From a virus, in IMG/VR virus record IMGVR_UViG_3300024344_000145, positions 1 to 22,069 of that record: a stretch of DNA of 22,069 nucleotides; one strand, written 5' to 3'. Shown here in pieces: positions 2,221 to 12,879 of the stretch. Under the pieces are notes generated by a model. It worked only from the letters and a program-made list of their open reading frames with translations. It was not told where the DNA came from and ran no database searches. The translations under genes and the position numbers were made by a program. Each line of letters begins with the position of its first letter. Positions within the stretch are counted from its first letter, which is position 1.

Positions 2221-2625
2221 TTGGTTTTAAACAAAGAAGAAACTCATATTGCAAATACATTTTTCATGAGTGAAAAGAATGCATTAGAATATTTAGATTC
2301 AAAAGGTATCGATATGGCAGCTTCTACCTGGTACTTGAAGAAAAAGCAACTAAAAGAAAAAGCACGCGAATTTCTATTTGAAAAGGCAAAGACCTTTGAT
2401 GCTCATCACATGGAGCAGATTAAACTTTTGGAATATGTTCAAGAAGAGATGTATGATAACTATCAAATGGCAAAAGAAACAAAGCCTGAACTAGCACACC
2501 GTATTTTGAAGGATCTAGCTGAGATACAATACATCATTTCTGACTATAACGAAGCAACACAATTCTTGATGCAAAATGAGAAAAAGGCAGGCAGTTTACA
2601 GAAATCAAACAAGCTCTCAGAGTAG
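2221..2625 (+). CDS. terS: putative terminase small subunit
   Basis: The 134-aa protein lies immediately 5' of, and overlaps by 50 nt, the large terminase gene. Residues 15-45 (SEKNALEYLDSKGIDMAAST) look like a helix-turn-helix: a helix, a turn at KGIDMA, then a second helix with WYLKKKQLKEKA. The remainder is a long helical region suited to oligomerisation. Small terminases recognise the packaging site and load the large subunit. The call rests on HTH-like pattern, size and gene order, because TerS proteins diverge beyond recognition. Start is TTG 2 nt after the previous stop. Confidence 0.6.
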   Translation: MVLNKEETHIANTFFMSEKNALEYLDSKGIDMAASTWYLKKKQLKEKAREFLFEKAKTFDAHHMEQIKLLEYVQEEMYDNYQMAKETKPELAHRILKDLAEIQYIISDYNEATQFLMQNEKKAGSLQKSNKLSE

Positions 2626-3916
2626 CCGTTTTACAGGCTTCACTGGTATTGCTTTTTGGTGTGGTGAGAAAGTTGCAAAACCTGGATGCTGCTTTAATCA
2701 TAAGATTGGCCTTCCAATGAAAAAAGGTGTTGAACATCCTATCTATCCATATGAGACTAACATACTAGATACATTAAACTCACACAAATTATTGTGGATT
2801 AAAAAAGCAACTGGACTTGGAATTACAGAGTTCATGCTGAGGTATATAGCTTGGAAAGCATTAGAGTCTAACGAGTGGCGTAATCAACAAGTTGTAATAA
2901 TTACAGGTGCTAGATTAGAGTTGGCCATATCTATCATTGAGCGCATAAAGAGATTGTTCGATATGGAGTTTGATACCAAAAATACAATTCTAGATTTGAA
3001 CGGCTGTAAAATTGAAGCTTTTCCATCTCACCATTTGGATTCGGCGAGAGGTCTACCTTCACCAGCTTTTGTTCTTATTGACGAAGCTGACTTTTTTCCT
3101 AGGTCTCAACAACACGAAGCTCGAAGTATTGCAGAAAGATATATTGCAAAATCAAATCCATACATCGTTTTAGTGAGTACTCCAAATCTTCCGAATGGCC
3201 TAATGGAATTGATTGAGCGGGAAGAGAATTCAATCTATCATAAAATCAAACTTCCGTATACAGTAGGGTTAGATGGTATCTATGATCGAAAGGAAATAGA
3301 GTTTGCAAAACACTCACCTTCTTTTGAAAGAGAATACAATTTGCGATATGGTATAGGTGTAGGTAACATGTTTAACATTGAAGCAATAGATGATTCAATT
3401 GAAGACTATGCTTTAGAATTAAACGGTGGAAAGAAGATTCTAGCCTTAGATCCTGCATTTAGTTCATCGATGTTTGCGTTCATAGGAATGGAGCAAATCA
3501 ATGGAATCTCATATGTTAAAGAAGCCTCAGAGATTCAAAATGCATCACCTTCTGCAATGCTAGAGAGAGCAAAGATTTTAGCTAAAGATTATGATAATAC
3601 TGTACTAGTGGATTCTGCACATCCTGGTATAGTTAGGGATTTACAAGATGCAGGAATAAACGCAAAGCCTGTAGTGTTTAGTAAGGAGTTATCAGAAATG
3701 ACGATTGGATCTATCCAGGCAATAAAGGAGCGAAAAATACGCATTCATAGTTCGTTTAACGATTTAGTGACACAATTAAAGTCGGTACAATTCAATGAAA
3801 AAGGACATCCCGATAAAACTAAACTATCCTTTGATATGGGTGATGCTTTCATGATGGCCACTAATTATTTCAGACATATTGATGTAGGTGCTTTTGCACT
3901 GGAAGGAAGTTTCTAA
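2576..3916 (+). CDS. terL: terminase large subunit (packaging ATPase-nuclease)
   Basis: This 446-aa protein has both terminase domains. ATPase: deviant Walker A KKATGLGITE (76-85, lysine at the front of the loop as in many TerL), Walker B FVLIDEAD (165-172, D169/E170), and coupling motif VLVSTPN (198-204). RNase H-like nuclease: LDPAF with D292, LVDSAHPG with D346, and FDMGDAF with D423. TerL translocates DNA into the prohead through the portal and cuts the concatemer. The segment CCFNHKIGLPMKKG just before the ATPase core suggests the upstream ATG at 2576 is real; the next in-frame ATG (2717) would cut into this. C29, C38, C39 and H42 could bind a metal. The stop overlaps the next ORF as TAATG. 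Confidence 0.95.
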   Translation: MRKRQAVYRNQTSSQSSRFTGFTGIAFWCGEKVAKPGCCFNHKIGLPMKKGVEHPIYPYETNILDTLNSHKLLWIKKATGLGITEFMLRYIAWKALESNEWRNQQVVIITGARLELAISIIERIKRLFDMEFDTKNTILDLNGCKIEAFPSHHLDSARGLPSPAFVLIDEADFFPRSQQHEARSIAERYIAKSNPYIVLVSTPNLPNGLMELIEREENSIYHKIKLPYTVGLDGIYDRKEIEFAKHSPSFEREYNLRYGIGVGNMFNIEAIDDSIEDYALELNGGKKILALDPAFSSSMFAFIGMEQINGISYVKEASEIQNASPSAMLERAKILAKDYDNTVLVDSAHPGIVRDLQDAGINAKPVVFSKELSEMTIGSIQAIKERKIRIHSSFNDLVTQLKSVQFNEKGHPDKTKLSFDMGDAFMMATNYFRHIDVGAFALEGSF

Positions 3917-6396: not shown

Positions 6397-8301
6397 ATGG
6401 ATATTAGGGTAGAGACTGTTACAGATCCTGATTATCCTGGATCAAAGATTTATGAAGTTACAGCATTAACAGTAGGAACTACTAGAAACGGTAACAAGTA
6501 TACAAAAGAGGAATTAGAAAAAGCAGCTAGAGGATTATCATTTAGAACAATAAACATCAATCATGAACAATCAAAGAGATTGTCATATCCTGAAAATCAG
6601 ACCTTGGCAATGGATTTTATTGAAAATGCAGTAAGAGGCCAAATTAGAATTGCAGATCCTCAGATACAAAAAATGATTGAAAGTGGTGATATCAATAAAC
6701 TATCAATTGAACAAATACCTGTAGATTCAGAAGATTGTGATGAAAAAGCATGTTTGCAAAAAGGTGTAACATTTACTGAAATTGCACTATTAACAAAAGA
6801 TACTCCGCCAGGAGATCCTAATACTGAAATCAAATTAGAAATGTTAGTGCGTGAGAATAGTTCTTCTAACGGAAATACTTCTCAAATTGAAGAAATTTCA
6901 CAAAATGATAAGATGGCAGAGGAAACTCCAAAGACCAACTCCTTGACAGAAGAGCAAGCTCAACTGTTGAGATCAGTCTTGAAAGCCAGTGGTAAAGAAG
7001 ATTTAGAAGAATGCGTTGCAGCCGCAATGGCCGCAGGCAAAACTCCTGAGGAAGCAATTGCTTCATGTCAAAAACCAGAGTCTGACTGTGGTTGCGATAA
7101 ATCAGAAGATGCACCTGTACCAACCGCAGCACCTGCAGTTGAAACAACAGAAGCAAAACCTGTTGAATTATCCGCAGCAGCAATGGAAACTTTGAAATCA
7201 TCTGAACAAAAACAGCTTGAGAAATTGGAAGAGCTAATTGGATTAGTAAAACCAAAAGAAGAAGCTGTAAAACCAGAACCAAGCTCAAAGGTAGCTGACG
7301 TAAAAACAGAAGCCTACAAGCCAGTACATGAGTTCTTTGAAGGTGTCAAATCAGGCAGCATTTCAGAAAACTCTACTTCATGGGAAGTTGATCTTGACAA
7401 AATGTACGAGCAATGGGGATACAAACATGAAGCTGTAACAGTTTCTAGTGGTACACCAGCTCAACAATATTCAAAATCAATTATGATAATCCCAGGCGGC
7501 AAAAGTAAAGTACCAATTCGCCAATTCTGTGACTTTGTAAAACTAGCAGGTCAAGAAAAAGCAAACTGGTATAAACTTCCAGGATTCAGCTTTGGTGCAA
7601 TCACCGAGGGAACTGAACCAACAAACGTCTCACAAACCTTAGCAAAGATTACAGCAACACCTTCAATCAGAGGTGCAGTTCAAAGAATTGGATATTCTCA
7701 AATTGAGGATGTACCAGGACTTACAAACAGCGTTAATGCTCACATGGCATTAGAAGCAGCATCTGATGAAGAAAAGTTGTTACACGCAGCATTCGATGCA
7801 GAAACCCCTACTAACTGGATCAATGCAAACACAGGCGGCACTATATCATCTGATGATGTAGCTAGCATGACCTTCAAACGTGAAGCAATTGTTGCAAGTA
7901 AGAAAAAACTTTCAGAGCAAGGTTATGATATTAGCCCTGGCAGTCTTGTAGCAATCTTACATCCAAAAGCATACAGTGAATTACTCTTGGACACCAACTT
8001 GAATAACTATTATCAAGATGCACAATCCTCGATAACTGCAACTGGCGCATTGGAAAAGATTTACGGTGTAGATATTGTAGTATCTGCAAACGTAACCGCA
8101 CAGGATAACAGTACAAATGATACATACCGAAACATAATTTTCGCAAAAGGCGATACTTTCGGTCTAGCAGCAACAAGAAACCTATCCGTTGAAGCACAGC
8201 GCAGAAACGAGGTACAGCAAGTCGTTGTTTCAGGCACTCATAGAGTAGCTTGTGCAGTCAAAGACGAAGCATCTTGTGTTAGAATATCATCTGCACAATA
8301 A
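6397..8301 (+). CDS. fused prohead protease, scaffold and HK97-fold major capsid protein
   Basis: A single 634-aa reading frame holds three parts. Residues 1-155 are a U35/S78-type prohead protease: ALTVGTTRNGNKYT, then RTININHE with candidate catalytic H56, then INKLSIEQIP with S103, followed by FTEIALL. Residues about 160-310 are acidic, Ala/Glu/Lys-rich and low complexity, with coiled coil around 263-285, as expected of a delta/scaffold domain. Residues about 310-634 are an HK97-fold capsid protein, with an N-arm, E-loop (VPIRQFCDFV region), spine helix and A-domain (PGSLVAILHPKAYSELL, YGVDIVVSANV). Self-cleavage after the scaffold would release the mature subunit. An in-frame ATG at 6913 (MAEETPK) could also start a protease-free product. 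Confidence 0.88.
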   Translation: MDIRVETVTDPDYPGSKIYEVTALTVGTTRNGNKYTKEELEKAARGLSFRTININHEQSKRLSYPENQTLAMDFIENAVRGQIRIADPQIQKMIESGDINKLSIEQIPVDSEDCDEKACLQKGVTFTEIALLTKDTPPGDPNTEIKLEMLVRENSSSNGNTSQIEEISQNDKMAEETPKTNSLTEEQAQLLRSVLKASGKEDLEECVAAAMAAGKTPEEAIASCQKPESDCGCDKSEDAPVPTAAPAVETTEAKPVELSAAAMETLKSSEQKQLEKLEELIGLVKPKEEAVKPEPSSKVADVKTEAYKPVHEFFEGVKSGSISENSTSWEVDLDKMYEQWGYKHEAVTVSSGTPAQQYSKSIMIIPGGKSKVPIRQFCDFVKLAGQEKANWYKLPGFSFGAITEGTEPTNVSQTLAKITATPSIRGAVQRIGYSQIEDVPGLTNSVNAHMALEAASDEEKLLHAAFDAETPTNWINANTGGTISSDDVASMTFKREAIVASKKKLSEQGYDISPGSLVAILHPKAYSELLLDTNLNNYYQDAQSSITATGALEKIYGVDIVVSANVTAQDNSTNDTYRNIIFAKGDTFGLAATRNLSVEAQRRNEVQQVVVSGTHRVACAVKDEASCVRISSAQ

Positions 8302-9148: not shown

Positions 9149-10054
9149 TTGGCCTTCGAATCAGAGTTCGTTTTATACTATGTTCTAGCTTTTATTTTAG
9201 TTGCATTATCTTTAATGTTCATTATTGAAGCTGTTTATGCTTATTCAGATTATTTTGAAGCTGTAAACATTAGGTATTATGATAATCCTACAACTTGTAT
9301 ATTTGAACCCGAATACGATGAAGACTTTACAACAAATCATCTTCCCGCGGTTTTTAATGGAATAAAAGAATGGGAAAAAATACTAACCAAGGCTACAGGT
9401 GGTGATTGGTATATCCCTGTGGTTCTTTATGAATGGGAACATCACATAAACAAAGGTGTTCATGATTATCTTAATTGTGATATTTTAATTACATTTGAAG
9501 AAACAAATGATCAAAGTATAGTAGGCCAAAGTGCATTAGGATTTAATTATTATAATCACTCCTGGTCAAAACACAAGTATTCACATATTGTTGTATTTTC
9601 AAATGTTTACCATAATGCAGCAAATGCCACTATTGACTTAGGTGTTGTACAAGATGGTGATGAAATAACAATCACAATCACGCCTAAATCATTAGAATAT
9701 GCAGATATGCACCATATTGTAAAACATGAATGGGGACATGCAGTAGGGGTGTTACATCATTTTAACACAAGTACAGTTACACCAAAAAGCGTAATGCATC
9801 CTACATTTGAACCCTTTACAGATTATTATATGGAAATACAACCTAGGGATGTTTATGCAATAACTCAATTGTATGGTGAAGATGGATGGGGTAGACCAAA
9901 TCCTGCAGTAATCTCAAAGCATTTTGCAGCAGCAGAATATTTCATTCCTGCTATACTGATAGAGGATTTGAGATATTATGTTGATCCTCTCATTGAATTA
10001 CCTGAAAGAGATGAAAATCCTTCCTATAACGCATCATACACTAGAAGTGATTGA
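9149..10054 (+). CDS. membrane-anchored or secreted metzincin (matrixin-like) metalloprotease
   Basis: The 301-aa protein has one N-terminal hydrophobic helix (residues about 8-30, a signal anchor). The catalytic domain carries the full metzincin zinc motif HEWGHAVGVLHH (H193, E194, H197, G200, H203) and a downstream Met-turn SVMHP (M216), the hallmark of matrixin/M10-like proteases. It should act outside the membrane. Following an XhlA-like and a holin-like gene, and with no peptidoglycan hydrolase seen, it is a good candidate for degrading the archaeal S-layer during virus release, or entry if virion-bound. That role is inference. The C-terminal 50 residues are acidic and Pro/Tyr-rich. The TTG start is supported by the box spacing; the next ATG (codon 23) would break the anchor. 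Confidence 0.82.
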   Translation: MAFESEFVLYYVLAFILVALSLMFIIEAVYAYSDYFEAVNIRYYDNPTTCIFEPEYDEDFTTNHLPAVFNGIKEWEKILTKATGGDWYIPVVLYEWEHHINKGVHDYLNCDILITFEETNDQSIVGQSALGFNYYNHSWSKHKYSHIVVFSNVYHNAANATIDLGVVQDGDEITITITPKSLEYADMHHIVKHEWGHAVGVLHHFNTSTVTPKSVMHPTFEPFTDYYMEIQPRDVYAITQLYGEDGWGRPNPAVISKHFAAAEYFIPAILIEDLRYYVDPLIELPERDENPSYNASYTRSD

Positions 10055-11645: not shown

Positions 11646-12071
11646 ATGGTAGATAGAGTTCGTGGCCTAGACGATGATTTTGAGACAGTTTTCATAGAAG
11701 GTTCTAAAAAATATGAATGGAAACTAAAAGACTTTTCAGCTTCTGAGGTACAAGATATCTTTGTAGATAAATTAGAAACAATAGATAAACTAACAAGATC
11801 AATGATGGAAGGTGATGCATCTGCAACATCATTACTAAAAAAAGAATGGGAGTTTGCAAAAGATATCTACATGACAGGTTTGATTGACTTTGATGAATCA
11901 TCCTGGAAAGAAATAACAACAGATAAGAAAATAACTAGAGGAAGCCTTGTAAAATTTGCAAAGGAAATAGCTAGTTTTTTAGTGGAAATGGATATGAAGG
12001 AAGAAATGCAGCTCTTGCGACAGCGATTGAATACGGCGAAACAGAGTTCCTCGGAAAATACAGAGGATTAA
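11646..12071 (+). CDS. tail assembly chaperone G-like protein (frame 0)
   Basis: The 141-aa acidic helical protein follows the tail tube gene by 1 nt, with residues 15-30 (VFIEGSKKYEWKLKDF) as beta strands and then helices containing SASEVQDIFV and LLKKEWEFAKDI. This is the position and form of lambda gpG-type tail assembly chaperones, which coat the tape measure during tail assembly. At codons 111-112 (11975-11981) there is a slippery heptamer, and a second frame continues to 12229. So the 141-aa product is the unshifted form, and the last 29 residues (Gln/Arg/Ser-rich) are probably only its alternative tail. Confidence 0.7.
   Translation: MVDRVRGLDDDFETVFIEGSKKYEWKLKDFSASEVQDIFVDKLETIDKLTRSMMEGDASATSLLKKEWEFAKDIYMTGLIDFDESSWKEITTDKKITRGSLVKFAKEIASFLVEMDMKEEMQLLRQRLNTAKQSSSENTED
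11975..11981 (+). other. -1 ribosomal frameshift slippery site T-TTT-TTA
   Basis: The heptamer T TTT TTA is exactly in phase with frame 0 of the chaperone gene (codons AGT TTT TTA). The -1 frame has a TAG stop at 11972-11974, immediately before the heptamer, and is open from there to TGA 12227-12229. No clear downstream stem-loop or pseudoknot was found by eye. The X-XXY-YYZ form matches known -1 slip sites, including those of phage G/GT genes. Confidence 0.8.
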
Positions 12072-12229
12072 CAGATTTCTATGAAGCCTTCATGTTAACT
12101 AAAAATGAAATTGGTAGTCTATATGAAGTCTGTAAATTATATGGTTTCAAACTAAACAAAGATTTTCTCAAATATGATACTTACATTGCACTAAAGGCAT
12201 ATTCTAATTTGGTGAATAAGAAAAAATGA
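11981..12229 (+). CDS. GT extension of the tail assembly chaperone (-1 frame)
   Basis: After a -1 slip, reading continues AGT GGA AAT (SGN) and gives 82 residues containing AALATAIEYGETEFLGKY, RGLTDFYEAFMLTKNEI and LYEVCKLYGFKL, an ordinary helical protein segment with normal composition. Together with 112 residues of frame 0 it makes a 194-aa GT fusion. There is no start codon at the beginning of this frame. An ATG at 12092 would give only about 45 residues and would leave half the open frame unexplained. In known systems GT is made at a low ratio and recruits the tail tube protein to the tape measure. The stop overlaps the next ATG (ATGA). Confidence 0.75.
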   Translation, partial: SGNGYEGRNAALATAIEYGETEFLGKYRGLTDFYEAFMLTKNEIGSLYEVCKLYGFKLNKDFLKYDTYIALKAYSNLVNKKK

Positions 12230-12879
12230 AACTAGAAGCTAGATTTGAATGGGGACAATTAAAAGCGGCATTAGATGAAGTGCCTGCTAATCAAGGCCGT
12301 CTAACTACAGAAATTTTAGATGTTTTAGCAAGAAGGTTTCTATCATATCTATCACAATATGCACCTCAACGAACTGGTAATTATTTACGTTCATGGCAAA
12401 TAAACAACAGAACAAAAAATTCTATTACTATATCATCACCAAACAGAATGTTATTTTTAATACTAGAATTTACAGGTGCAAAACCTCATATGATTAGACC
12501 AGTTAGGAAACAAGCTTTACGTTTCCAGATGGGCGGAAACCTTTTCTTTTCAAAAGGTCATATGATAAAAGGAATCAAACCAATACCTCATGTTAGGCCT
12601 GCACTCAAAGCATTAGAACGAGATATTCCAGGAATTGTATATGATTTAACTGGTAAGATAATGCCAAAATTATTTGAAAAAGCTACCAGACGTTATAGAG
12701 GTCGAGCTACAGATCCTGCATTTCGTGGAAACAAAAAACAGATTTCTATGGCAAGAAAACAAGGTGGTAAGAAAATCATCAAAAGGGGTTCATTTGGCCG
12801 TGTGTTAAGACGAAGGACAAAAAGAGTTGGTACAAAAACAGGCGATACCAGTTATCGTGCTAGAGTAACAAAGTTCTAG
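12226..12879 (+). CDS. HK97 gp10-like tail / neck protein with basic C-terminus
   Basis: The 217-aa protein has the gp10/gp22-type core: a helical N-terminus, YAPQRTGNYLRSWQI near residue 45, a beta region with ILEFTGAKPHMIRPV around 79-93, and KGIKPIPHVRPAL near 114-126, where the His-x-Arg-Pro motif ends the domain. Residues 145-217 form a long Lys/Arg-rich tail (RYRGRATDPAF, VLRRRTKRV). Such proteins usually sit in the neck gene cluster before the tail tube; here the gene follows the chaperones. The basic tail may contact DNA or the tape measure. The ATG overlaps the GT stop. Confidence 0.65.
   Translation: MKLEARFEWGQLKAALDEVPANQGRLTTEILDVLARRFLSYLSQYAPQRTGNYLRSWQINNRTKNSITISSPNRMLFLILEFTGAKPHMIRPVRKQALRFQMGGNLFFSKGHMIKGIKPIPHVRPALKALERDIPGIVYDLTGKIMPKLFEKATRRYRGRATDPAFRGNKKQISMARKQGGKKIIKRGSFGRVLRRRTKRVGTKTGDTSYRARVTKF

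Follow-up and report, generated by a model that had tools for sequence, protein, structure and literature searches.

A predicted programmed -1 frameshift in the tail assembly chaperone genes of tailed viruses of Nitrososphaeria

In phage lambda, a small open reading frame (ORF) that follows the tail-tube gene gives rise to gpG and, through a -1 slip on a heptamer of the form X_XXY_YYZ (G_GGA_AAG), to the fusion gpGT, whose C-terminal T domain has no start of its own and lies upstream of the tape measure gene. This frameshift is conserved in long-tailed double-stranded DNA phages (Xu, Hendrix and Duda, 2004, as cited in PMC5009743). For archaea, a review from 2021 lists one well-studied -1 frameshift, that of the Sulfolobus alpha-fucosidase, together with predictions in a few haloviruses (PMC8211752). 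In haloarchaeal siphoviruses, -1 shifts are predicted in the G-T genes of HVTV-1, HCTV-1, HCTV-2 and HCTV-5 (PMC5009743, PMC8211752). For HSTV-2 and the HF1 group the predicted shift is +1 (PMC5009743, PMC8211752, PMC7230728), in the latter proposed to occur at TTT-CGC (PMC7230728). Here, we describe the tail module of the IMG/VR virus record IMGVR_UViG_3300024344_000145, the whole 22,069 bases of which constitute the window analysed, and in which the ORF after the tail-tube gene very probably belongs to a G/GT-type pair of tail assembly chaperones whose longer member depends on programmed -1 ribosomal frameshifting. The kind of system is known; the host group is new for it. No report of a G/GT-type frameshift in thaumarchaeal viruses was found in the literature covered, which left out most subscription journals. 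An earlier, sequence-only reading of the window had remarked that archaeal examples are few; this holds, though four haloarchaeal cases of the same kind have been published.

Read from its ATG at 11646, frame 0 of the chaperone gene runs ...ATA GCT AGT TTT TTA GTG..., and T_TTT_TTA at 11975-11981 is therefore in phase (bases 11970-11990 are GCTAGTTTTTTAGTGGAAATG). A TAG at 11972-11974 closes the -1 frame directly before the heptamer, from where this frame is open to a TGA at 12227-12229, and frame 0 ends at a TAA at 12069-12071. All of this is as the sequence-only reading had laid it out, and recomputing the products returned its figures: 194 amino acids (112 + 82, with the predicted junction FLSGNGYE) for the fusion against 141 for the unshifted protein. 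That the -1 product has no start codon of its own was likewise upheld, the sole start codon before its last seven residues being an ATG 39 codons past the slip site, and the product that had been called sensible and helical is indeed modelled as all-helical, with moderate confidence (mean pLDDT 70). The proposed chaperone layout before the tape measure gene stood in part: the position in the tail module is conserved, and the order major tail protein, chaperone, T frame, gp10-like gene, tape measure is common to the window and its relatives, but an HK97-gp10-like gene intervenes, its ATG (12226) overlapping the stop of T as ATGA. The locus thus shares with lambda the small ORF after the tail-tube gene, the -1 slip site of the X_XXY_YYZ form and a startless C-terminal T domain upstream of the tape measure gene; it differs in the intervening gene, in a different heptamer, in a protein without detectable sequence similarity and in its presumed thaumarchaeal host. 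HVTV-1 and HCTV-1, -2 and -5 are alike in being tailed viruses of archaea for whose G-T genes a -1 shift has been predicted, whereas the group to which the window belongs uses T_TTT_TTA or C_CCT_TTG/C and consists of viruses of Nitrososphaeria. The HF1 group also has two-frame chaperone genes before the tape measure gene, but with a proposed shift in the opposite direction.

A described counterpart is the module of the Nitrososphaera viennensis provirus Nvie-Pro1 (FR725450, L002), where gp18 and gp19 (12237-12826) stand after the major tail protein gene and before the gp10-like and tape measure genes and are homologous to the module in the window (FR725450; PMC6563490). The last codons of gp18 are GGC CAC CCT TTG TGA, which puts C_CCT_TTG (12593-12599) in phase and immediately ahead of the stop. 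The -1 frame corresponds to gp19, annotated from a GTG that shares the final base of the slip site. Unlike the reading given here, the annotation treats the two as separate hypothetical genes, and frameshifting is mentioned neither in the FR725450 record nor in the paper on the thaumarchaeal proviruses (PMC6563490), in which the word 'frameshift' does not occur. The two are probably one frameshifted gene, with a predicted junction of ...RRGHPL-VRRDLEVLYTTGAVQW....

Taken singly, the sequence of the window is only suggestive. The probability of any in-phase heptamer (Y = A/T) in the overlap is 0.066, from 30 possible in-phase positions and 0.0023 heptamers per codon, and with a chance of 6.6% in a single sequence homologues are needed to decide. 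Relatives were picked by similarity of terminase, capsid or tail tube and never by the heptamer. Searches of viral contigs with the chaperone, tail-tube or terminase sequence of the window alone returned no relatives, and tblastn of the window chaperone against GenBank phages gave no match; the viral-contig relatives were recovered with alignments of terminase and capsid that included Nvie-Pro1. Where measured, the identity of the large terminase subunit (TerL) to that of the window is 33-57% across the 16 distinct loci that carry T in the -1 frame.

All 16, the window among them, have an in-phase X_XXY_YYZ at the junction of frame 0 and the -1 frame, in the gene after the tail-tube gene. The heptamer is T_TTT_TTA in 11 (window, L133, L134, L135, L139, L142, L143, L003, L021, L099, L158), C_CCT_TT(G/C) in three (L002, which is Nvie-Pro1, L004 and L082; L082 and L083 have C_CCT_TTC) and A_AAA_AA(G/A) in two (L155 with A_AAA_AAG, L156 with A_AAA_AAA), the last two having, as in the window, a -1 stop directly before the slip site. 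In nine IMG/VR loci (six distinct), whose TerL is 33-35% identical to that of the window, the heptamer is T_TTT_TTA throughout and lies 96-98 codons from the start of the gene. The codon preceding T_TTT_TTA is AGT, GTT, ATT, AAT, CAT, GCT or GAT, that is, seven amino acids with T always at the wobble position; the Phe-Leu column is aligned among frame-0 proteins less than 20% identical to that of the window, and the T products of the relatives align from the slip site onward. The conservation that the sequence-only reading had proposed to check is therefore seen for the heptamer together with both frames, at times with a swap for another valid heptamer, and none of the 16 loci has kept the frames and lost the heptamer.

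The chance of a heptamer per overlap is 0.3-20%, and its product over the 16 loci is about 1e-21 at the background rate, or about 1e-14 when conditioned on the amino acids by codon resampling with each locus's own usage; as the loci are related, both figures are optimistic. Moreover, in the codons that belong to T only, dN is below dS in seven pairs of relatives (0.16 against 1.20 for L139/L142), a measure computed among the relatives and not computable for the window itself. Within the overlap, the synonymous rate of frame 0 falls to 0.13-0.86, compared with 1.05 to saturation upstream, a drop that dual coding predicts. The -1 product is under purifying selection in the relatives.

By the mechanism that we propose, most ribosomes would terminate at 12069-12071 and yield the short G-like protein of 141 amino acids, and a minority would slip back by one base on U_UUU_UUA, tRNA-Phe re-pairing from UUU to UUU and tRNA-Leu from UUA to UUU, to read AGU GGA AAU onward to 12229 as the G-T fusion. 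All of the C and T cases are accounted for by slippage of tandem tRNAs on U_UUU_UUA or C_CCU_UUG/C. If the two parts act as in lambda gpG/gpGT, G would coat the tape measure protein and T would recruit the tail tube protein, with the ratio of G to GT set by the slip rate. The sequences show the layout, its conservation, selection on the -1 frame and the lack of a usable start; slippage in the host, its efficiency and the chaperone function we infer, the last from the gene order together with the matches of two relatives: L099 matches PHROG 344 'tail assembly chaperone' (E=2.5e-4), whereas for L156 the match is PHROG 166 'tail protein' (E=2.4e-4).

Several observations weigh against this interpretation. 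RNA folding downstream of the heptamer, which the sequence-only reading had listed among its checks, gave no consistent structure, with z near 0 in most loci and only L133 at -2.6. The frame-0 protein of the window has no significant family match, its structure model is too poor for use (pLDDT 45), and a fold comparison of the T model gave no significant match to known folds. Further, it is the +1 rather than the -1 frame that holds the T domain in more distant relatives.

It is conceivable that T is made as a protein of its own, through translational coupling or through reinitiation at a start codon close to where frame 0 ends; the two-gene annotation of gp18/gp19 with its GTGA overlap, and an ATG that the -1 frame of L082 has ahead of the heptamer, would suggest this. 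However, no start codon position is shared among the homologues: the first in the window lies at codon 39, L133 lacks ATG, GTG and TTG throughout its 92-codon -1 frame, and L004 has GTC where Nvie-Pro1 has its GTG 'start', yet retains C_CCT_TTG. Separate starts for the second frame, which the sequence-only reading had named as grounds for giving it up, are thus not a shared feature of the homologues, and reinitiation is unlikely; moreover, the homology of T starts at the slip site, and reinitiation would not keep the heptamer in all 16 loci. Polymerases are able to slip on long runs, and homopolymers (T6 or A8-A9 runs) lie at the site in 13 of the 16 loci, so that slippage of RNA polymerase on the T6 run, giving mRNAs with bases inserted or deleted, also comes into question. 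A run of six T is, however, short for this, and in the three homologues with C_CCT_TTG/C, where the longest homopolymer is at most five bases, the tandem-tRNA slip site is nonetheless perfect, making transcriptional slippage unlikely there and, overall, a slim prospect. A chance heptamer with a spurious -1 frame, or an assembly error in which a one-base indel splits a single long gene, could appeal to the 6.6% for the window alone but is scarcely credible, being already refuted by conservation of the two-frame layout: its 16 distinct loci come from different contigs and genomes, one of them the finished record of Nvie-Pro1, and both frames are under purifying selection.

The coordinates of the features are given in Table 1. 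Among GenBank phages, TerL of the window has one strong match, Nvie-Pro1 (49%, E=2e-137), and a second, weak and partial, to a Xanthomonas phage; the fused protease and major capsid protein (MCP) matches only Nvie-Pro1 (55% across the conserved part). Other relatives were found in a Nitrososphaera metagenome-assembled genome, in other genomes of the class Nitrososphaeria and in IMG/VR contigs, and the portal has a Portal_Mu match in a comparison limited to Pfam. Because TerL and MCP match Nvie-Pro1 and other Nitrososphaeria loci, it is well supported by sequence that the window is a tailed virus (Caudoviricetes) with a presumed host among the Nitrososphaeria (Thaumarchaeota), which bears out the earlier guess of an archaeal virus. 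TerL relatives were present in 49 of 400 genomes searched of the order Nitrososphaerales (including L034, L063-L067, L069-L075, L077 and L078); many of these matches were uninformative, being short contigs or fragments, or islands without a recognisable tail module. In addition, positions 9149-10054, within the structural module, encode a predicted metallopeptidase (HEWGHAVGVLHH motif), similar ones being found in L133 (10302-11132) and L125 (5611-6414, HEFGHALGLGH).

Candidate recoding sites of other kinds were noted in relatives. Four more distant loci, from proviruses of Nitrososphaeria and one IMG/VR contig, have their T domain in +1: L026 (- strand, 6334), L027 (7611), L157 (- strand, 2618) and L024 (- strand, 6012). 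The junctions are TTT_CGN in three (TCC_TTT_CGC, TTA_TTT_CGA and GGG_TTT_CGT), the motif proposed for the HF1 group recurring in L026, L027 and L157, and TTT_TTT_CAA in one; the background rate of TTT_CGN in the +1-type loci is 0-0.001 per codon. In L025, a chaperone-like gene is present with no recognisable T frame. A different site, a run of 9-10 A, stands at the 3' end of a probable prohead protease gene in 14 marine contigs found by terminase match (12 distinct loci and the near-identical L121 and L126), the gene having no Pfam match and being so named from a sequence motif and because the capsid gene follows it directly. The frame-0 stop is at most four codons away, and the -1 frame stays open for 83-319 codons. 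Of six such extensions that were scanned, five contain a KTSC domain (PF13619, best E 3e-16). Whichever amino acid precedes the run, its codon has A as the last base, and the A9 run is unique within long ORFs in 11 of the 12 distinct loci; -1 slippage here could be ribosomal or transcriptional. We lean slightly towards a wider use of recoding than is known among the tailed viruses of Nitrososphaeria and their relatives, comprising the deeply conserved -1 chaperone site (mostly T_TTT_TTA), its replacement by +1 TTT_CGN in other lineages, and the A9 extension of the protease with a KTSC tail in the marine relatives.

Table 1. Features of the window, and of A-run sites in marine relatives
Feature	Position	Strand	Evidence
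Terminase large subunit	2576..3916	+	PHROG 2 E=1e-18; 49% to Nvie-Pro1 TerL; query for finding relatives
Protease / major capsid protein fusion	6397..8301	+	55% to Nvie-Pro1 protease/MCP; query for finding relatives
Major tail (tube) protein (MTP) gene, 299 aa	10745..11644	+	Identity 28% with 'putative major tail protein' of Nvie-Pro1 and 27-33% with the MTPs of eight relatives
Predicted tail assembly chaperone, G-like ORF, frame 0, 141 aa	11646..12071	+	Place after MTP conserved; aligns with relatives
TAG stop, -1 frame, directly upstream of slip site	11972..11974	+	
Slippery heptamer T_TTT_TTA, in phase with frame 0	11975..11981	+	In-phase heptamer kept in 16/16 distinct -1-type loci, the window being one
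T-like -1 frame, 84 codons, predicted to be read only after a -1 shift	11975..12229	+	dN<dS in relatives
HK97-gp10-like / Neck1 tail completion gene	12226..12879	+	PHROG 5 E=7e-6; Nvie-Pro1 gp20 at same place
Probable tape measure protein, 794 aa	12919..15303	+	Position, length; syntenic with Nvie-Pro1 'putative tail tape measure protein'
A9-10 run sites in relatives	L108 10982, L111 13356, L112 6273, L118 5990, L119 11547, L124 15757		
A9-10 run sites in relatives	L125 7291, L127 10657, L129 13299, L130 9159, L131 15584, L150 13802		

The present analysis also corrects gene calls in these viruses, where the T part is either missed or annotated as a gene of its own. The +1 TTT_CGN sites and the A9 run of the protease each merit a study of their own. 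Finally, the presence of the predicted slip site in viruses of ammonia-oxidising archaea makes archaeal frameshifting testable beyond Sulfolobus and the haloarchaea, one copy of the site being that of a provirus in the cultured Nitrososphaera viennensis.
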